From an uncultured Bacteroidales bacterium (lineage in GTDB: Bacteria > Bacteroidota > Bacteroidia > Bacteroidales > P3): 40,993 bases of DNA. Under the pieces are notes generated by a model. The model was not told where the DNA came from, searched no databases, and saw only the letters and a list, made by a program, of their open reading frames with translations. The stretch lies in the NCBI GenBank assembly GCA_946406015.1, contig CAMJJD010000016.1, positions 1-40,993 of the forward strand. Direction: 5' to 3'. A program made the position numbers and the translations under genes. Shown here piece by piece: positions 1,000 through 32,215 of the stretch; position 1 is the first letter of the stretch; every line of letters starts with the position of its first letter.

Positions 1000-1140
1000 T
1001 AGTTAAAGAAGTTAAAGAAGTTATCGCGCTACGCGCTAGTAGTTAAAGACAAATGCACTTTGGACAACACAGCAGGGCAGGACAGCGCTATTGTCTTTAA
1101 CCACTTTAACTTCTAGCGAAGCGATATCTTCTTCAACTGT
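1000..1140. repeat. Imperfect inverted repeat with 9-bp tandem units
   Basis: The left arm (about 1000-1052) starts with tandem copies of a 9-base unit, GTTAAAGAA. The right arm (about 1091-1140) is an imperfect reverse complement. An 11-base block, GTTAAAGACAA, at 1042-1052 is matched exactly by its complement at 1091-1101. Both arms also carry related short palindromes rich in CGCTA/TAGCG. The loop of about 38 bases codes for nothing visible. The element fills the spacer between the kinase stop and the aroK stop, two convergent genes, so it could also act as a transcription end, although no clear T-run follows it. Confidence 0.65.
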
Positions 1141-3299: not shown

Positions 3300-3306
3300 A
3301 TTCTAT

Positions 3307-3340
3307 TTAGGAGTTAAGGAGACAGGAGTTAAGGAGTTAT
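3307..3340 (+). repeat. Left arm of inverted repeat around the four-helix-bundle gene
   Basis: This arm is built from 7-8 base units of the type GGAGTTA(A), with one variant unit GGAGACA. It begins 8 bases outside the recN start codon. Its reverse complement is the arm at 3766-3800. The two differ by one inserted base and two substitutions and share an exact core of about 22 bases. In RNA the pair would close a stem of more than 30 pairs around the 372-base gene. Confidence 0.85.
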
Positions 3341-3371
3341 GACAATTGTTTTTGACTCAATCACTCTGCCG

Positions 3372-3743
3372 TCATTCCCAGTTTTTTCTGTTTACTATTG
3401 CATTACTATACCCATTAAGCAACTTGCTTGTTTCTTCTATTTCATCTATCATCTTGGAGGCCTCTTCTTCAGAGATATAGCCAATATCAACAGAAAGAAT
3501 GATATAGCATCGACATTCTTCCAAACTTCCTTGTGAGTAGTTAAGAAAACGTAGTTTGTCATCTTTTCCAAGACGTTTATAGCCTTCTGCTATATTTGCA
3601 GCAATGGAGACAGCAGCTCTTCTAAATTGAGAGATAAGTCCAAACTTCTCGTTATCTGGGAACTTTCGAGTTATCGTATAGACATGTTTAATAAATATCC
3701 GTGCTTTTTGCCAAGCTATAATATCTTCAAATCTTGTTGTCAT
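3372..3743 (-). CDS. Four-helix-bundle protein (23S rRNA intervening-sequence protein family)
   Basis: This 123-residue protein has the family hallmarks: FEDIIAWQKA at the N-terminus, FPDNEKFGLISQFRRAAVSI (about residues 28-47), NIAEGYKR and FLNYSQGSLEE. The family (Pfam 23S_rRNA_IVP, TIGR02436) was first seen as open reading frames inside intervening sequences of 23S rRNA; its members form pentameric helical bundles, and the Avd proteins of diversity-generating retroelements are relatives. The molecular role is not settled. Here there is no rRNA and no reverse transcriptase nearby. The gene is clearly A+T-richer than its neighbours, has a good Shine-Dalgarno sequence, and is enclosed by an inverted repeat, all of which suggest acquisition by transfer. 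It lies between sufS and recN, in the same direction. Confidence 0.9.
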   Translation of the reverse strand: MTTRFEDIIAWQKARIFIKHVYTITRKFPDNEKFGLISQFRRAAVSIAANIAEGYKRLGKDDKLRFLNYSQGSLEECRCYIILSVDIGYISEEEASKMIDEIEETSKLLNGYSNAIVNRKNWE

Positions 3744-3751
3744 TATATTAT

Positions 3752-3757
3752 CTCCTT
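3752..3757 (-). promoter_or_regulatory. Shine-Dalgarno site of the four-helix-bundle gene
   Basis: AAGGAG lies 8 bases before the ATG at 3741-3743 (minus strand). Such sites are rare in Bacteroidota and I see none at the neighbouring genes, so this supports the chosen start and hints at a foreign origin. Confidence 0.6.
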
Positions 3758-3765
3758 GTATTGTC

Positions 3766-3800
3766 TTAACTTCTTAACTCCTGTCTCCTTAACTTCCTAA
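3766..3800 (-). repeat. Right arm of inverted repeat around the four-helix-bundle gene
   Basis: This is the inverted partner of 3307-3340, with the same GGAGTTA-type units around a GGAGACA unit on the minus strand. It overlaps the sufS stop codon: the TAG at 3797-3799 is part of the repeat, so the element abuts or replaces the end of sufS. Confidence 0.85.
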
Positions 3801-4999
3801 TTCAGCATCGGCAAGATGCGCTCCAGCGCGGCGATGAAGGCGTCGACCTCATCGCGGGTGTTGTAGACGGCGAAAGAGGCACGGACGGTTCCAGGGATGT
3901 CGTAACGGTCCATGACGGGCTGGGTGCAGTGGTGGCCAGTACGCACGGCGACGCCAAGTTGGTCGATGAGAGTGCCCACGTCGTAAGGATGGGCTTCGCC
4001 GACGAGGAACGACAGCACGGCGGCTTTCTCAGGAGCTGTGCCGAAGAGGCGCACGCCAGGGATTTCCCGGATACGGGCGGTGGCGTAGTGCAGCAGGTCG
4101 GCCTCATGGGCGGCGATGGTGTCGATGCCCACTTGTTGCATGAAGTCGATGGCGCAGCCCAGTCCCAGCACGTCGCCCACCGACGGAGTGCCAGCCTCGA
4201 ACTTGAAGGGCAGATGGTTGTAGGTGGTACGTTCGAAGGTCACCTCTTCAATCATCTCTCCCCCACCCTGGTAAGGGGGCAGCTCGTCAAGCATCTCCTG
4301 ACGGCCAAACATCACGCCGACGCCCATGGGGGCGTACATCTTGTGACCCGAGAAACAGTAAAAGTCGCAGCCGAGGGCCTGCACGTCGACCTTAAGGTGA
4401 GATATGGCCTGAGCGCCGTCGACCAACACCGGAACATTATGGGCATGAGCCATGCGGACTATTTCGGCCACCGGATTGACGGTGCCGAGGGTGTTGGAGA
4501 CGTGCGTCACGGCGACGAGACGAGTCTTCTCGTTGAAGAGACGGCTGTAGGCGTCGAGGTCGAGCACGCCGACGTCGCTGAAGGGGATGGGGCGCAGACG
4601 GGCGCCAGCCAGCTGCCACGGCACGATATTGGAATGGTGCTCCATACCGGAGACGATGACCTCGTCGTCACCCTGGAAGAAACGTCGGGCGAAGCTGGAG
4701 GCTACCAGATTGATGCTCTCGGTGGTGCCGCGGGTGAAGACAATCTCCTCGTGGCTGCGTGCACCGATGAACTGCTGCACCTGCCGGCGCACCGCCTCGT
4801 AGCGGTCGGTGGCCACGGCGGCAAGATGGTGGGCACCACGGTGGATATTGGCGTTGAGGTGGGCGTAGTAGTCCGACAAAGTGTCAATGACCGCCTGCGG
4901 TTTCTGCGTCGTGGCGGCATTGTCGAGATAGACGAGTCGGTGGCCGTGCACCTCGGTGTCGAGGATGGGGAATTGGGAGCGTATGTCGGAAAGGTTCAT
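3797..4999 (-). CDS. sufS: Cysteine desulfurase SufS (group II)
   Basis: This PLP enzyme removes sulfur from cysteine for Fe-S cluster assembly. Visible hallmarks are YLDNAATTQKP near the N-terminus, RGTTESINLVA, MEHHSNIVPWQ (PLP-stacking His), DGAQAISH, the PLP lysine K220 in SGHKMY, and the persulfide Cys C358 in RTGHHCTQP, with the one-residue spacing of SufS rather than the long loop of IscS. The length of 400 is normal. The start codon overlaps the stop of the upstream DedA gene by 3 bases (ATGA). The usual sufBCD partners are not in the window, so they must lie elsewhere. The stop codon lies in the inverted-repeat arm. Confidence 0.95.
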   Translation of the reverse strand: MNLSDIRSQFPILDTEVHGHRLVYLDNAATTQKPQAVIDTLSDYYAHLNANIHRGAHHLAAVATDRYEAVRRQVQQFIGARSHEEIVFTRGTTESINLVASSFARRFFQGDDEVIVSGMEHHSNIVPWQLAGARLRPIPFSDVGVLDLDAYSRLFNEKTRLVAVTHVSNTLGTVNPVAEIVRMAHAHNVPVLVDGAQAISHLKVDVQALGCDFYCFSGHKMYAPMGVGVMFGRQEMLDELPPYQGGGEMIEEVTFERTTYNHLPFKFEAGTPSVGDVLGLGCAIDFMQQVGIDTIAAHEADLLHYATARIREIPGVRLFGTAPEKAAVLSFLVGEAHPYDVGTLIDQLGVAVRTGHHCTQPVMDRYDIPGTVRASFAVYNTRDEVDAFIAALERILPMLN

Positions 5000-15203: not shown

Positions 15204-16490
15204 TTAATTATCGAACTGATAGCCGATTCCAGTGGCGGGGCTACCCTCCTGCAGATGGTAGTCATCCTCGTCGGTGTCGACAAACTGAGGGTCTTCGTCC
15301 CAATCGCCGCCCTTCACCAGGCAGTGAGTGAAACTATAGTTGAGTTGGCATGCCTCTATGCCGCTTACAATCACCTCGGCGGGTGAGTAGGTGCCATAGA
15401 TGATGCAGTCGGTGAAGTCGGCCTGCGTGAGGTCGCCCGTCTGCGCCACGCTACCGTCGGCAGCCAGCAGATAATTGGTCAGCACCACGCTCTCTATGCG
15501 GCGTGACGAATAGCGCCAGTAGTCGGCGAAGGTGCAACCCGCGAAGTCGTAGCTGCCGCCCCGCAACACGGTGAGGCTGGTCAGGCAGTCGTAGACCAGC
15601 AGGTTGCTACCGCTGATGCTGCCGCCTTGCCCTATGAGGGCGCAGTCGCTCATGTTGCGGATGACGGTGTTGCTCACCGTCAGGTCGGCGTCGGGGTAAA
15701 CACGCAGGCCGCCGGTGCCATTCTCTACAATGGCGTGGTTGATGATATTGCCCGTGCTGCCACTGGTGAACCAGAGGCACTGCCACTGGCCCGGCAGGAA
15801 CGAGTACCAGCCGTCGTGACGCAGCGAGGTGAAGAGCACCGGCTGCTCAGCGCTACCGCTGGCAATCAGCCGTGCGTTGGTGTCTATGGCCAGGATGGCA
15901 TTATTGTAGAAGTAGAGTTCATCACCGGGCTGCAAGGTCAGCGTATTGCCGTCGAGGACCGCGGCAACACCCATGATGACATGTGGCCGCGTATGGTCCC
16001 AGTTGGCACAGTCAATGACGCTGTAGGGCTCTCCCTCGGGTACCGCGTGGTAGACGGCATTGCGGCCCCAGGCCGTCAGCGGCAGCCGCTGGCCGTTGCC
16101 GAAGACGATGGCATCCTCCTCCAGGAAAGGCGCCGTCTGGTCGTTGGGGTTGATATTTGCCTGGACGAAGATGAAGAGGCTGTCGCCCGCCAGGAGTTCA
16201 ACATCACGCGCCACGAGCGATGTGTCGCCGTCGACATTGAGACGGAATCGGCTTGCACGTCCTTTCTGCAAGGTGACACTGCTTATCACGACATCGTTAC
16301 CGGTGGCATTGTAGACCACCACCTGACGGGTGGCGCTACCGACGGTGGTGAAGAGGGTGTCGAAACTGAGCGTGTCGACCGAGAAACAGAGCGGCACCTC
16401 GCGCTCGTCGGCATAGCCGCCGTCAGCACACGAGAGCGTCAGCATCGGCATCACGGCCGCCAGCACTATAAGATATAGGATTTTCTTCAT
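15204..16490 (-). CDS. Lipoprotein with right-handed beta-helix repeats
   Basis: The N-terminus is a lipoprotein signal with lipobox LTLSC (Cys 21), so the 428-residue protein is probably anchored in the outer membrane. Residues about 35-130 form a beta-rich domain (DTLFTTVGSATRQVVVYN, resembling DUF1573-like or immunoglobulin-like modules). From about residue 180 there are parallel-beta-helix turns with short repeated phrases such as IINHAIVENGTGGLRV, LTVSNTVIRNMSDCAL and GSNLLVYDCLTSLTV. The end (PQFVDTDEDDYHLQEGSPATGIG) matches the closing motif of many Bacteroidota beta-helix proteins. The role is unknown; polysaccharide binding is a guess. It is followed after 7 bases by ruvA and preceded by the M64 peptidase gene. 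Confidence 0.82.
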   Translation of the reverse strand: MKKILYLIVLAAVMPMLTLSCADGGYADEREVPLCFSVDTLSFDTLFTTVGSATRQVVVYNATGNDVVISSVTLQKGRASRFRLNVDGDTSLVARDVELLAGDSLFIFVQANINPNDQTAPFLEEDAIVFGNGQRLPLTAWGRNAVYHAVPEGEPYSVIDCANWDHTRPHVIMGVAAVLDGNTLTLQPGDELYFYNNAILAIDTNARLIASGSAEQPVLFTSLRHDGWYSFLPGQWQCLWFTSGSTGNIINHAIVENGTGGLRVYPDADLTVSNTVIRNMSDCALIGQGGSISGSNLLVYDCLTSLTVLRGGSYDFAGCTFADYWRYSSRRIESVVLTNYLLAADGSVAQTGDLTQADFTDCIIYGTYSPAEVIVSGIEACQLNYSFTHCLVKGGDWDEDPQFVDTDEDDYHLQEGSPATGIGYQFDN

Positions 16491-16493
16491 TTG

Positions 16494-16518
16494 CCTTATC
16501 TCCTGTCTCCTTATCTAC
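16494..16518. repeat. Spacer repeat sharing its core with the four-helix-bundle cassette
   Basis: The 28-base spacer between the M64 and lipoprotein genes is almost entirely a patch whose minus strand reads as AGATAAGG-type units around GGAGACA. It matches the arms at 3307-3340 and 3766-3800 with a 13-base identical core (TAAGGAGACAGGA), differing mainly by A for T in the flanking units. Confidence 0.7.
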
Positions 16519-17787
16519 TTACTCCGTATAAAGTCCTATCACAGCCTCTATCCGCTCGCGGCACACAGGGCAGAAAGGCGCATAGTCGCGCATCATGCAG
16601 TGCATCACAGGACGGTAGACACCCTTACTGCTATAGCCCGCCCCTTCATAGACGCCCAGCGGTCCGTTCTCGGTGCGTGGCACCTTTGCATTCTCCGGTG
16701 TCGGCACCGGCGTTCCCTTCTTGAGCATACGCCTCCACTTGCTGTCAAAATCCACGAGATTGGTGATGTTCGGCTCCAGCGGCTCATACTTCGTGCGGTG
16801 CAAGTCGGCATAGCTCAACTCTTCGTCGACATACTCGTCGGCCAGACCGCCGATACCATGGCCCAGCTCATGCGTCAGCACCATCTCGGCCATCGAATGC
16901 AGCGAACTGACAGAGTAGAAGTTGTATATAGCTCCGCCACCGTATTTCTTGTTGTTAAGTACAATGATAATGTGGTCACATGGCACTTGCCCAAGCACAT
17001 CGTGCAACTGCCACACCTTGAAGGTCATCGCATAGCGGTCAATCCCAAAAGCGTTGTATTCTACCCCGGCGTCGCCTTTGACGAAATAAATATTGAAGTC
17101 TGTTTTGAAACTCCGGAACGGTTCCTTGTCAAAGAGCAACTGCTTCATGCGGTTACACACCTGCTTGTAGGCCATGTCGTCCATCGTGTCGAACCCCTGC
17201 ATGACGAAAGCCATATCGAATTTGTTATAGCTGTCTCCATATAAACTGAAGTCCACATCCTTCCCATGGTCAAGGAACTCATACTCCTTCCCTTCGATGT
17301 TTCTCGGAGAGCGGGTCTCCAACCTCGTCTGTCGAGGGACATATTCGACCACCGTCTGATCGACCAGCCGCATAGCCTGGTCGCGTCTCTGCAAAGCTAT
17401 CATCACCTTGCCTTTCGGCATGGGCAGCAACAGGGTCTCCTCGAAGCGTCTGGTGACAGTGCGGCCCTCGGGGGTGTCCTTGTACTCACGGAAAAGGCTG
17501 CTGTAGCCGCGCGAATAGAGTTCCCGGCCCGTCGCCGCATCGCGCACCACCACACGGTTGTCACCGTTGTTGAAGGGGTCAAGCAGCTGCGTGCGCGACC
17601 CGTGCCAGTCGCACTGGCGGTCAATCCAATGCTCCACCCACACAGTGTCGCCCTGCGCCGACCCCTCGCGCAGGCAGTCAAGACGCAGTGTGCCGCCGGT
17701 GAACCAACGGTCGAAGTCTTGCGTCTGCGCCAACAGGACAGGGCTCATGGCAAGGAGTGTCAACAATAACAAAATCTTATGTCTCAT
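16519..17787 (-). CDS. Secreted M64 family (IgA peptidase-like) metallopeptidase
   Basis: The start MRHKILLLLTLLAM is preferred because it gives a compact signal peptide ending at LLAQ; an in-frame ATG six codons upstream (17805) is possible. The N-terminal beta domain (about residues 20-170) with FREYKDTPEGRTVTRRFEET is the usual M64 N-terminal module. The catalytic motif HELGHGIGGLADEY begins at His 306, preceded by the VMQGF and FNIYFV strands of the family. M64 enzymes include a Clostridium IgA1 protease, but most members, widespread in gut Bacteroidota, have unknown substrates. No type IX sorting domain is present at the C-terminus, so a periplasmic or outer-membrane location is likely. 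The gene heads the long minus-strand run. Confidence 0.9.
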   Translation of the reverse strand: MRHKILLLLTLLAMSPVLLAQTQDFDRWFTGGTLRLDCLREGSAQGDTVWVEHWIDRQCDWHGSRTQLLDPFNNGDNRVVVRDAATGRELYSRGYSSLFREYKDTPEGRTVTRRFEETLLLPMPKGKVMIALQRRDQAMRLVDQTVVEYVPRQTRLETRSPRNIEGKEYEFLDHGKDVDFSLYGDSYNKFDMAFVMQGFDTMDDMAYKQVCNRMKQLLFDKEPFRSFKTDFNIYFVKGDAGVEYNAFGIDRYAMTFKVWQLHDVLGQVPCDHIIIVLNNKKYGGGAIYNFYSVSSLHSMAEMVLTHELGHGIGGLADEYVDEELSYADLHRTKYEPLEPNITNLVDFDSKWRRMLKKGTPVPTPENAKVPRTENGPLGVYEGAGYSSKGVYRPVMHCMMRDYAPFCPVCRERIEAVIGLYTE

Positions 17788-18596: not shown

Positions 18597-19502
18597 ATGA
18601 AACAGATACTGAAAGCCGCCGAGCTCACCTCGGCTGTCAACGCCGCCCGTCAAGAGGGCAAGCAGATAGGCCTCGTGCCCACCATGGGTGCCCTCCACGA
18701 GGGTCACCTCTCGCTCATCGAGCGCGCCCTGAAGGAGAACGACCTCGTCGTGGTCTCCCTCTTCGTCAACCCCATCCAGTTCAACAACAAGGAAGATCTG
18801 GAGAAGTACCCCCGCACCATCGAGGCCGACCTGGAGTTAATTAAGAATTTAGAATTAAGAATTAAGAATGAGGCCAAAGCCTCCACTCTGCTGGCCTTCA
18901 CGCCTACCGTCGAGGAGATGTATCCACAGGGTGAGCCCAAGGAGGTCTACCACTTCGGCCCCATCGAGGAGGTGATGGAAGGGCCGCGCCGTCCAGGCCA
19001 CTTCAGCGGTGTCGCCGTGGTGGTACGCCGTCTGTTCGATCTGGCACAGCCCCACCGCGCCTACTTCGGCGAGAAAGACTACCAGCAGATTGCCGTCATC
19101 CGCAACTTGCTGGAGCAAATCAAATATCCCATCGAGTTGGTCCCCTGCCCCATCGTGCGTGCCGATGACGGCCTGGCCCTCAGCAGCCGCAACATGCGCC
19201 TCTCCCCTGCCGCCCGCCAGATGGCACCCGCCATCAACGCCACCCTCGAGCAGGCCGCCGAGATGGCCGAGTACGAGGAGGTCGACGACGTCAAGGAGTG
19301 GGTGCTCGACACCCTGGCCTCGTGGCACGAAGTGAATGAATGCGGCGAAGGCTTGCAGTTCGAGCCCGAATACTTCGAGATTGTCGACGCCATCACCCTC
19401 CAGCCCATCGCCGACTGGGACGAGGCCGGGGAGCATGGCGCCGTAGGCTGCATCGCCGTCTGGCTCGACGGCGTGCGCCTGATAGATATCGTCAAGTTCT
19501 AG
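18597..19502 (+). CDS. panC: Pantothenate synthetase
   Basis: PanC joins pantoate and beta-alanine using ATP to form pantothenate for coenzyme A. The nucleotidyltransferase signatures are VPTMGALHEGHLSLI (HxGH type, about residues 26-40), LFVNPIQFNNKEDLEKYPRT (pantoate site), FGEKDYQQ and SSRNMRLSP (the KMSKS-like ATP loop). The length of 301 is about 15-20 residues above the usual 280. The excess sits at about residues 80-94 (LIKNLELRIKNEA), just after the DLE that normally leads to the next strand, and is encoded by five A+T-rich heptad units. The reading frame stays open, so the enzyme may well be functional. The stop is only 2 bases from the stop of the convergent barrel gene. Confidence 0.95.
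   Translation: MKQILKAAELTSAVNAARQEGKQIGLVPTMGALHEGHLSLIERALKENDLVVVSLFVNPIQFNNKEDLEKYPRTIEADLELIKNLELRIKNEAKASTLLAFTPTVEEMYPQGEPKEVYHFGPIEEVMEGPRRPGHFSGVAVVVRRLFDLAQPHRAYFGEKDYQQIAVIRNLLEQIKYPIELVPCPIVRADDGLALSSRNMRLSPAARQMAPAINATLEQAAEMAEYEEVDDVKEWVLDTLASWHEVNECGEGLQFEPEYFEIVDAITLQPIADWDEAGEHGAVGCIAVWLDGVRLIDIVKF
18839..18873. repeat. Heptad array inside panC
   Basis: Five exact-register 7-base units, AATTAAG with minor variants, lie within the panC reading frame. Their A+T richness contrasts sharply with the surrounding G+C-rich codons. Thirty-five bases are not a multiple of three, so the frame is kept only together with flanking changes. Confidence 0.85.
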
Positions 19503-21175: not shown

Positions 21176-21865
21176 TTACAATATATTGAGTGCTAACATT
21201 GTGCCGTCCATCTTGCTGGGCTCGTGGCGGCGCAAGAGAGTCTTGAAGATACTCGCACGCTTGGACTTTCGCTCCTCGGCAGTGGCGACAGGCTGTTCTG
21301 ACGTATTGCTGACTGACACTATCGGTGCGGCGATTGTCTCAACAGACTCGGTCTGTGCTATGGGTGCAGGCTCGGACACTGCGGCCTCTTCTATCATCAT
21401 CACCTTGTCCTGTCTTTCAACCACAGGCTCTTCCACTTCCATCAGCTCTGCCGGCACCTCCTCGGCCACATATTCCTCCACCACCGTAGGTTCAGCAGTC
21501 ACCCTAGGGCGCTCGCAGACGGGGTGCTGCACAGCAGGGGCCGCAGGCGTTGAGTCGGCAACCACAGGAGTTACCTCCGGCACTTCGGCTTGCGCCACAA
21601 GGTTTTCATCCACGGTGCTTTCTGTGGGGATGAACCAAACACGCACGGCTGTGCCGATGAAGAAGAGCACGCAGGCCGCAGCAGCCATACGCGAGACCCA
21701 CCACCATGCACCATGCTTTCCACTTTCCACTTTCCGCTTTCCACTCTCCTCTGCCATGCGGTCGATCATCGCACCCAGCTCCTGCCGGCGTCGCTCGTCG
21801 CGGCCGGCATGTTCCACCTCGGCCAGCAGACCTTCAAGGTCCAGTTTATGTTTATCGTTGTTCAT
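21176..21865 (-). CDS. Single-pass membrane protein, possible anti-sigma factor
   Basis: The 229-residue protein overlaps the upstream sigma-factor gene by 14 bases, as anti-sigma genes often do. It has a cytosolic head of about 45 residues (MNNDKHKLDLEGLLAEVEHAG), one membrane helix (about residues 52-72, MAAAACVLFFIGTAVRVWF) and a periplasmic part very rich in Glu, Val, Pro and Ala (VEEYVAEEVPAELMEVEEP), probably extended. No FecR or zinc-binding anti-sigma motif is visible, so the role rests on position and topology. Just before the helix the sequence EESGKRKVESGKHG is encoded by a heptad repeat patch (21717-21751). Confidence 0.65.
   Translation of the reverse strand: MNNDKHKLDLEGLLAEVEHAGRDERRRQELGAMIDRMAEESGKRKVESGKHGAWWWVSRMAAAACVLFFIGTAVRVWFIPTESTVDENLVAQAEVPEVTPVVADSTPAAPAVQHPVCERPRVTAEPTVVEEYVAEEVPAELMEVEEPVVERQDKVMMIEEAAVSEPAPIAQTESVETIAAPIVSVSNTSEQPVATAEERKSKRASIFKTLLRRHEPSKMDGTMLALNIL
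21717..21751. repeat. Heptad array inside the putative anti-sigma gene
   Basis: Five 7-base units TTTCCAC/TTTCCGC/TCTCCTC (plus strand) run in register. Twenty of 21 bases match the array in nadB (30950-30970). On the coding strand they encode ESGKRKVESGK just before the membrane helix. Confidence 0.85.
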
Positions 21866-30628: not shown

Positions 30629-32215
30629 TTACACCAGGTCGAGCGAGTAGTGCAGGCCGACGTTTTGGCGGCGGGCTCGGGCCATCTTGATGATGAGGTA
30701 GGCGCAAGCTATCAGGTTGCGTAGCTCGCTGAGCGGCTCGGTGAGGACGCTCCGGTTGTAGAGGTCCTCCGTCTCGCGGAAGATGAGGTTCAAGCGGTCG
30801 AAGGCGCGCTGCAGACGCAGGTCGCTACGCACGATGCCGACATAGTTCCACATGATTTCTTGCAACTCCTTCTTGGTCTGGGTGATGAGCACCATCTCCT
30901 CGTTGAGCACCATCCCCTCGGCATTCCAGTCGGGCACCTCGTTTTTCACTTTCCAGTTTCCGCTTTCCACTTTGGCGATAGCCGACATGGCGGCGTTGTG
31001 GGCATAGACCACCGCTTCAAGCAGCGAATTGGAGGCCAGGCGGTTGCCACCATGCAGGCCGGTACAGCTGCACTCGCCGGCAGCATAGAGGTGGTGGATG
31101 GACGACTCGCCGTTGCGGTCCACCTTGATGCCGCCACACTGGTAGTGGGCGGCCGGGCGCACGGGAATCATGTCGCGTGTGATGTCGATGCCTATCGAAA
31201 GACATTTGGCGTAGATGGTGGGGAAGCCCTCGATGAGGTGCTTCTTTCCGATGCCGCGGGCGTCGAGGTAGAGGTAGTCCTTGCCGCTGAGTTTCATCTC
31301 GTTGTCGATGGCGCGAGCCACAATGTCGCGCGGCGCCAGCGAGAGGCGCTTGTCATATTTCTGCATAAACTCCTTCCCGTCGCGGTCCTTGAGCACGGCG
31401 CCGGCGCCACGCATAGCCTCGGTGATGAGGAAGGCCGGCTTCTCGGCCGGATTGTAGAGGCTGGTGGGATGGAACTGCATGAACTCCAGGTCGCTGAGCA
31501 CACCGCGGGCGCGGTGCACCATGGCCACGCCGTCGCCGGTGCTGATGACCGGCGTGGTGGTGGTCGAATAGACGTTGCCCATGCCACCGGTGGCCAGCAG
31601 GGTCACCTTGGCCAGGTAGGTGTCGATACGGTTGGTGTCGCAGTCGAGGGCGTAGACGCCGTAGCATTCGATGTCGGGCGTGTGCTTGGTGACACGCTGG
31701 CCGAGGTGGTGCTGCGTGATGATGTCGATGGCGAACTGGCGCTCCTTGATTTCGATGTTGGGATGGCGACGGGCGGCCTCGAGCAGGCCACGCTCAATCT
31801 CCTCGCCGGTATTGTCCTTGTGGTGCAGGATACGGAACTCCGAGTGACCGCCCTCGCGATGCAGGTCGAACTTGGCGGGTGCTCCCGCCGGGCTTTTTCC
31901 ATTCGGCACACGGTCGAACTCGACACCGTACTGCACCAGCTCGCGGATGCGGTCGGGCGCCTCGCGGATGGTCATCTCCACCACCTCGCGGTCGCAGATG
32001 CCGTCGCCGGCCACCAGGGTGTCCTGGATATGCTTGTCGAACGAGTCGGAGTCGTACATCACCGCCGCAATCCCCCCCTGGGCATAGCGCGTGCTGCCCT
32101 CGGCGGCATCGCCTTTGGTGAGTATGCACACACGGCCGTGCTCGGCCACTTTCAGTGCGAAGCTCAGGCCCGCAATACCCGAGCCAACAACCAAGAAATC
32201 AACTTCGTAGCGCAT
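30629..32215 (-). CDS. nadB: L-aspartate oxidase
   Basis: NadB oxidises L-aspartate to iminoaspartate, the first step of de novo NAD synthesis, with FAD. The start MRYEVDFLVVGSGIAGL is chosen because the only in-frame start upstream (a TTG at 32242) overlaps the -7 promoter box. Motifs: GSGIAGLSFAL (FAD), RYAQGGIAAV, HREGGHSEFRILHH, LLATGGMGNVY, QFHPTSLYNP, PVRPAAHYQCGGIKVD and GECSCTGLHGGNRLASNSLLEAVV. The length of 528 is normal. The stretch AKVESGNWKVKNEVPDW (about residues 413-429), at the start of the C-terminal helical domain, is encoded by five heptad units. nadA and nadC are not in the window. Confidence 0.95.
   Translation of the reverse strand: MRYEVDFLVVGSGIAGLSFALKVAEHGRVCILTKGDAAEGSTRYAQGGIAAVMYDSDSFDKHIQDTLVAGDGICDREVVEMTIREAPDRIRELVQYGVEFDRVPNGKSPAGAPAKFDLHREGGHSEFRILHHKDNTGEEIERGLLEAARRHPNIEIKERQFAIDIITQHHLGQRVTKHTPDIECYGVYALDCDTNRIDTYLAKVTLLATGGMGNVYSTTTTPVISTGDGVAMVHRARGVLSDLEFMQFHPTSLYNPAEKPAFLITEAMRGAGAVLKDRDGKEFMQKYDKRLSLAPRDIVARAIDNEMKLSGKDYLYLDARGIGKKHLIEGFPTIYAKCLSIGIDITRDMIPVRPAAHYQCGGIKVDRNGESSIHHLYAAGECSCTGLHGGNRLASNSLLEAVVYAHNAAMSAIAKVESGNWKVKNEVPDWNAEGMVLNEEMVLITQTKKELQEIMWNYVGIVRSDLRLQRAFDRLNLIFRETEDLYNRSVLTEPLSELRNLIACAYLIIKMARARRQNVGLHYSLDLV
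30943..30977. repeat. Heptad array inside nadB
   Basis: Five units in register (TTTTCAC, TTTCCAG, TTTCCGC, TTTCCAC, TTTGGCG) lie within the nadB frame and encode KVESGNWKVK. The array shares 20 of 21 bases with the one in the putative anti-sigma gene. Confidence 0.85.

Follow-up and report, generated by a model that had tools for sequence, protein, structure and literature searches.

What does a gene of the 23S rRNA intervening-sequence (IVS) protein family do between sufS and recN, two protein-coding genes, and why is it framed by a long inverted repeat? The locus lies in the window, the whole stretch of 40,993 nucleotides analysed here, which comes from a contig of an uncultured Bacteroidales bacterium (assembly GCA_946406015.1, CAMJJD010000016.1). 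An initial annotation, made from the letters of the sequence, described the locus as an IVS-like element outside rRNA and offered two ideas for it, a mobile element or an RNA segment that excises itself. Here we follow these ideas through filled and empty sites, through the arms and proteins of other copies, and through systems already described.

The element in the sufS-recN spacer

The element spans 3305..3801 on the minus strand and occupies the entire sufS-recN spacer; its limits come from the arm alignment and from the short spacers of sister genomes. The recN-side arm (3305..3346, plus strand) consists of tandem GGAGTTAA/GGAGACA units with GACAAT at the inner end, and the sufS-side arm (3760..3801, minus strand) aligns as its inverted copy. 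Between them, an ORF with profile matches at 3372..3743 on the minus strand encodes a four-helix-bundle protein of 123 amino acids (PF05635/TIGR02436). This confirms the enclosed PF05635-family gene of the initial annotation and extends its arms. The two arms, 42 nt each, are 88% complementary. When the upstream flank was aligned to the reverse complement of the downstream flank, the arm test used throughout, the window scored 32.0 against a maximum of 11.5 among 50 shuffles. With at most one mismatch, GGAGTTAAGGAG has four matches in the window, every one inside the arms, where 0.11 would be expected. RNA folding predicts that the arms form a closing stem (MFE -140.8, z -7.2). The element thus has terminal inverted repeats, as do DNA transposons/IS and classical 23S rRNA IVSs.

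Profiles of the neighbouring proteins are consistent with their given names (Aminotran_5 for sufS, SMC_N/RecN for recN), and sufS, the PF05635 gene and recN all lie on the minus strand. The initial annotation had the right arm supply the sufS stop codon. The stop does lie inside that arm, but the element-free sister genome G012 carries TAG at the same codon, so the stop probably belongs to the host. An Rfam scan of the window locus, at E up to 1, matched nothing. Forty loci scanned in this way yielded two tRNAs, one sRNA and no rRNA, and the description as IVS-like outside rRNA holds. An Acido-Lenti-1 sRNA match (55.9 bits; L198, 3152-3197) adjoins a copy in the window's own genome.

The protein matches PF05635 (E 1.9e-37, 128.1 bits against a curated cut-off of 33.8) and TIGR02436 (E 3.2e-34, 117.4 bits against 24). 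Pfam returned nothing else but one sub-threshold bAvd match; no nuclease or transposase family of Pfam or NCBIfam was matched, and no phage record matched the protein. Five chains make up each of the solved relatives 2gsc and 2rld; the Xcc0516 paper, as cited in PMC3936711, has a title that speaks of an assembly of five four-helix bundles.

Filled sites, empty sites and junctions

Thirteen sister genomes largely share the block sprA-TPR-dedA-sufS-recN-aroK-udk. Comparison of the block placed the element at sufS-recN in the window's genome only and at sprA-TPR in G002 only. It adjoins udk in six genomes, one copy being a fragment, and lies 4.3 kb from sprA in G023; the examined block stretches of G008, G009, G012, G024 and G001 lack it. 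Among 30 recN loci compared, the gene adjoins recN in the window's locus alone. In eight sister genomes the sufS-recN spacer measures 2-37 bp without the element; relatives do not, then, all carry the same gene and spacer, an outcome that the initial annotation had linked to an old fixed locus. The spacer holds other inserts in G004, G001, G024 and G036, and is possibly an insertion hot spot for unrelated elements. The G001 insert carries a Y1 transposase gene; those of G004, G024 and G036 are repeat-rich, as is an insert at L258 13514-13957. In G001, G008 and G023 the sprA-TPR spacer contains repeat arrays with no gene.

At the position of the window's AATTAG-element-AAATAGAATATG, the relative that is closest across most of the block, G012, has CAATAGAATATG. 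On the recN side, a possible target-site duplicate AATAG (3303..3307, minus strand) equals AATAGAATATG of the G012 empty site. Its possible counterpart on the sufS side, AATTAG (3797..3802, minus strand), is inexact and includes the sufS stop TAG.

Junctions could also be read on cyanobacterial plasmids. At site A, where Trichormus was compared with Aulosira and Tolypothrix (flanks 97-98%), a 420-bp insert has GTAAT on both sides. A 413-bp insert at site B of Nostoc ATCC 53789 has TTCTA on both sides, the right-hand duplicate reading TTCTG in the Nostoc C052 copy, and a 503-bp insert at site C, again in Nostoc, has TAATG/TTATG at its ends. Duplications of 5 bp are thus exact at two plasmid sites, with near-duplications at the third and in the window; at 65% AT, all five bases would agree by chance in a single register with a probability of about 0.0015. 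At sites D (cas6-cas4), E and F the junctions were not clean. The plasmid inserts, at 408-503 bp, have no space for a second sizeable gene. As far as genome comparison can show it, the whole element inserts as a block. Empty relatives may nevertheless reflect precise loss, because site A also has a decayed copy in Nostoc C052 and a gene-less hairpin in Brasilonema. A gene-less hairpin at L306 1440-1560, with heptamer arms and a GGAAACCCGCCCACGGCGCTGCCTCC loop, occupies the same site as the full Trichormus copy.

L296, in the cas6-cas4 interval, and L333, in the cmr2-cmr3 interval, are armed copies inside CRISPR operons that look like insertions of the same element class. PCC 7002 (L335) lacks the copy that PCC 7003 has between cmr2 and cmr3, and a duplication is unreadable at this site. 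When the longest ORFs called by script were taken as neighbours, 86 armed copies had callable ones, in 72 co-directional, 9 convergent and 5 divergent settings. The gene lies in sense with its co-directional neighbours in 68 of the 72 copies, and does so at all nine distinct annotated plasmid sites that were opened.

Arms and protein across genomes

Our main sample comprised 110 loci, 80 from genome contigs of many phyla and 30 from Bacteroidota, of which three were too short. The 80-locus set is not random, because it was found through a conserved peptide and holds the best 80 of the matches listed. Arm scores of at least 16 were reached at 70 of 107 loci and at 3 of 350 shifted positions of the same loci; for scores of at least 18 the counts were 57/107 and 2/350. 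In an initial set, 30 of 33 copies beat the best of 50 shuffles, a few by little. A second set of 39 was drawn from eight named-locus genomes and ten plasmid copies. Of these, 37 scored at least 15 and beat their shuffles, and 32 scored at least 18; seven of the 39 are loci of the 107-locus set, and some plasmid copies lie at one common site. The arm-gene-arm layout therefore recurs across many bacterial groups. Copies without flanking inverted repeats, which would have told against the initial annotation, are the minority here, and its mobile-element idea gains support from the arms on most tested copies together with the absence of the gene from this spacer in the examined relatives.

Arms usually contain about four or five tandem units of 7-9 bases each, mostly 7-mers, with 8-9-mers in the window's clade; the median arm of 35 nt equals five 7-mers. 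A search for a common core among the units returned AGT alone as mildly enriched (73/108 arms against 59.2 expected), which we found unconvincing. Read from outside to inside, arms have more G than C in 91 of 97 cases. We give this richness little weight, because it recurs in 23/28 of the best inverted repeats that arise by chance in weak copies. Shine-Dalgarno-like words were rejected as its cause (49/97, with 62.2 expected from shuffles).

In the window's genome, fourteen profile matches correspond to 13 places. Matched arms flank the gene at 11 of these, with a different unit at each; they score 19 to 32, and the best of their shuffles 11 to 15. L203 (52 bits) and L207 (21 bits), both weak homologues, are the two armless copies. 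The arms also occur elsewhere. A 27-base double arm unit, at no more than three mismatches, has 32 matches in this genome, equal to about 26 places when merged within 100 bp, the two arms of the element among them; the reversed control has none. The double unit was found in 8 of 37 genomes, with 1 to 8 matches in each of the seven others. Many of the 13 repeat loci inspected are solo arms, in which a T-rich lead precedes the array and GACAAATG follows it. Taken together, the eleven own-genome arms have 54 places in 400 kb of their own genome and 15 in 400 kb of four sister genomes, with 0 and 0.3 for shuffled and 27 and 7 for reversed arms. Of the 27 own-genome reversed matches, 26 trace to L196, L201 and L204, and the L204 unit and the GAATTAA form of L201 are identical when reversed; the remaining eight arms give 34 places against 6, and 1 and 0 when reversed. 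Recent within-genome duplication was considered and set aside, just one pair in the sampled set exceeding 60% protein identity.

The window itself holds such pieces. A gene-less hairpin at 1001..1111, with related arms (1001-1027/1085-1111, 78% complementary) built of AGTTAAAGA units and with GACAA at the inner end, occupies the spacer of the uridine kinase and shikimate kinase genes and is likely a non-autonomous or decayed element copy. A solo arm at 16490..16525 (minus strand) crosses the spacer of two ORFs on the minus strand. At CAAATG, its inner end, it overlaps the start codon of ORF 15204-16490 and appears to supply this downstream gene with that codon. Other 7-mer arrays overlap long ORFs: AATTAAG at 18839-18869, CTTTCCA at 21716-21749 and TTTCCAC at 30943-30973.

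In distant genomes the link is plainer, with arrays of given units nearly limited to the genome whose element bears the unit. Across nine genomes, in counts that take in overlapping matches and the arms of the element itself, TAATTCG arrays have 69 matches in G208 and none in the others, AGTAAGGG arrays have 17, in G213 alone, and GGGAATC arrays have 6 in G214 and 1 in G000. A reciprocal test had mixed outcomes: the L041 unit is enriched in its own genome, and the arms of L035, L028 and L027 showed no enrichment in 100-kb samples of theirs. Solo arrays do not, then, follow the element in every case. Arms also vary with proteins. Among 98 armed elements, the arm-similarity z had a mean of 2.76, with 37% above 3, in 198 sampled pairs of more than 50% protein identity, and was about -0.3, with 2% above 3, at 30-42% identity; Spearman's coefficient was 0.40 over 750 sampled pairs. 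Pairs were meant to be cross-genome, but some loci, from a few genomes, are labelled twice; L117/L271, one locus entered twice, was left out of the 198 pairs and is included in the Spearman value. We read this co-variation as a unit travelling together and not as binding, because block inheritance alone gives the same pattern.

Q39, E53 and E76 never vary among 108 armed proteins, and R42 (103/108), S46 (107/108) and N50 (106/108) are kept in nearly all; part of this motif was published before, as GxxRxxxSxxxNxxE, in PMC3936711. A paralogue group from sister genomes (L313-L326 and L332), to which L203 also belongs, is armless: none of 15 copies reaches a score of 15, two are barely above their own shuffles, and L203 lacks arms. 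All 16 members have S, A or T for Q39 and D or E for S46, and 14 have H or T for R42, which is R or K in the other two; N50, E53 and E76 are retained. This paralogue was possibly inherited vertically. The remote group L327-L331, by comparison, keeps Q39, K/R42, S46, N50 and E53, and four of its five loci have arm scores of at least 18.5. A further 38 of 169 copies bear the motif without clear arms (score below 15). One flank or both carry an array in 9 of these 38, compared with 4 of 76 shifted positions. Over 21 pairs of seven copies from the window's clade, pN/pS was 0.08-0.31, with dS mostly saturated; by this comparison the PF05635 protein is under constraint across insertion sites.

Explanations and known systems

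What, then, is the element? We consider it probable, with good but incomplete confidence, that it is a mobile, operon-dwelling arm-gene-arm element, most likely directed by its own protein through its own arms; its movement we infer from the filled and empty sites. Such a widespread small element of about 410-500 bp, two inverted arms around one 23S-IVS-family gene, would enter short transcribed spacers as a block, usually in sense and, as is probable, with target duplications of 5 bp; solo arms occur as well. The four-helix protein, a ring of five in solved relatives, would most likely bind its own arm repeats, presumably with one subunit per repeat unit at each arm, and direct mobilisation, the conserved polar residues being candidates for cutting and joining DNA. 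Because the arms can pair in RNA, excision by RNase III is plausible here and may lower the cost to the host operon. The idea in the initial annotation of a self-excising RNA that would uncouple recN from sufS fits this pairing and the sense bias. The action of the protein on the arms, the way in which DNA is cut and joined, and RNA excision in the sufS-recN operon are things that we infer. An ability of the protein to move its own arms would make it, at about 120 residues, a mobile-element enzyme; we know of no such role for the four-helix-bundle fold.

The gene might instead be a passenger in an arm-bounded block moved by an IS or host recombinase, its product merely tuning RNA or expression. 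The protein matches no catalytic family, as this would have it, and a Y1 transposase gene does sit in the same spacer of G001. One enzyme would, however, have to recognise the many different arm units of one genome, and neither the constraint on the protein across sites nor the changes in armless paralogues at Q39 and S46 (16/16) and R42 (14/16) suits a passenger, which we think unlikely. It also seems improbable to us that RNA came first, the arms serving an RNase III-cut stem as in rRNA IVSs and the spread through DNA being incidental or ancient. The stable predicted stem, the sense orientation of 68/72 copies and the RNase III excision of the rRNA IVS, described in PMC4990558, all fit that account; whole-element insertions with 5-bp duplications, solo arms at many sites and tandem units that a plain stem does not need argue against it.

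Gene-less arrays such as those of the sprA-TPR spacer could be taken to mean that independent simple-sequence repeats are landing sites that the gene merely enters. Arms are, however, inverted and unit-matched at every armed copy, paralogues within one genome differ in unit, similar arms accompany similar proteins, and the short empty sufS-recN spacers and plasmid sites A-C have no array, all of which makes this very improbable. Were the locus old and fixed, with the gene serving recN or sufS in some ordinary host role, its protein-level constraint would be accounted for. We give this reading next to no credence: the gene stands beside recN in just one of 30 loci compared, related copies lie at other sites, and no examined close relative has this insertion.

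Beyond the self-directed mobile element that we prefer at this locus, a wider proposal is tentative and perhaps somewhat more apt to be wrong than right. It holds that PF05635 proteins with Q-x2-R-x3-S-x3-N-x2-E may be the recombinases of an unrecognised, bacteria-wide class of minimal elements, from whose arms and copies STRRs and IVSs would derive. Each protein ring would recognise its own tandem heptamer or octamer arms, the elements would sit in sense in operons, solo arms would become dispersed heptamer repeats (STRRs), and arms landing in rRNA would become classical intervening sequences. Three puzzles may then be one. The rRNA IVS has been known since 1990, its origin and function termed unclear in the Discussion of PMC4990558; the spread of heptamer repeats had no evident mechanism (abstract of PMC4679880), and STRR function is described as still not known in the STRR passage of PMC2670836; and the family's occurrence in cas loci is left unexplained in section 15 of PMC3936711. 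The element class may explain both scattered heptamer repeats and rRNA intervening sequences, and its copies in CRISPR operons may explain the published occurrence in cas loci. In the literature covered, with most subscription journals outside its scope, we recognised no paper linking the PF05635 family to heptamer arms outside rRNA.

The IVS of Coxiella burnetii, as described in PMC4990558, has 428 nt, a 28-bp terminal stem and tandem GACAGAT heptamers directly upstream of its S23p ORF, and is excised by RNase III; the paper cites older proposals that IVSs are mobile or are transposition remnants. On this description it shares with the window element the protein family, a similar size, stem-forming inverted terminal repeats and an ORF apparently in sense. 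It lies in helix 45 of 23S rRNA, whereas the window element lies in an mRNA spacer and, unlike it, is one of 13 copies in its genome, with diverse arm units and scattered arm copies. Classical 23S IVSs look like element copies that landed in rRNA. STRR/heptamer repeats of cyanobacteria, Xanthomonas (GGGAATC; PMC4692102) and Beggiatoaceae (TAACTGA; PMC4679880) have similar short tandem units. The Xanthomonas repeats form 70-75 inverted pairs per genome (PMC4692102), those of Beggiatoaceae had no evident transfer mechanism according to the abstract of PMC4679880, and the main texts of both papers lack the terms 'four helix', 'intervening' and 'S23'. The arms of the planctomycete copy L279 are composed of GGGAATC. 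The window arm is likewise dispersed, at about 26 places, but its unit has 8/15 bases and is not strictly 7.

The Avd/bAvd proteins of diversity-generating retroelements (DGRs) are related four-helix bundles whose matches are weak and below curated cut-offs, the window protein reaching 40.1 bits against the Avd cut-off of 80; a scan of six neighbour proteins gave no reverse transcriptase. REP/RAYT systems also place a gene between inverted repeats and have dispersed repeat copies in the genome, and RAYTs are Y1 transposases. The window element shares this plan of a gene between inverted repeats that are dispersed around the genome, and differs in that its protein is no Y1 transposase and the arms of its class are built of tandem 7-9-mers.
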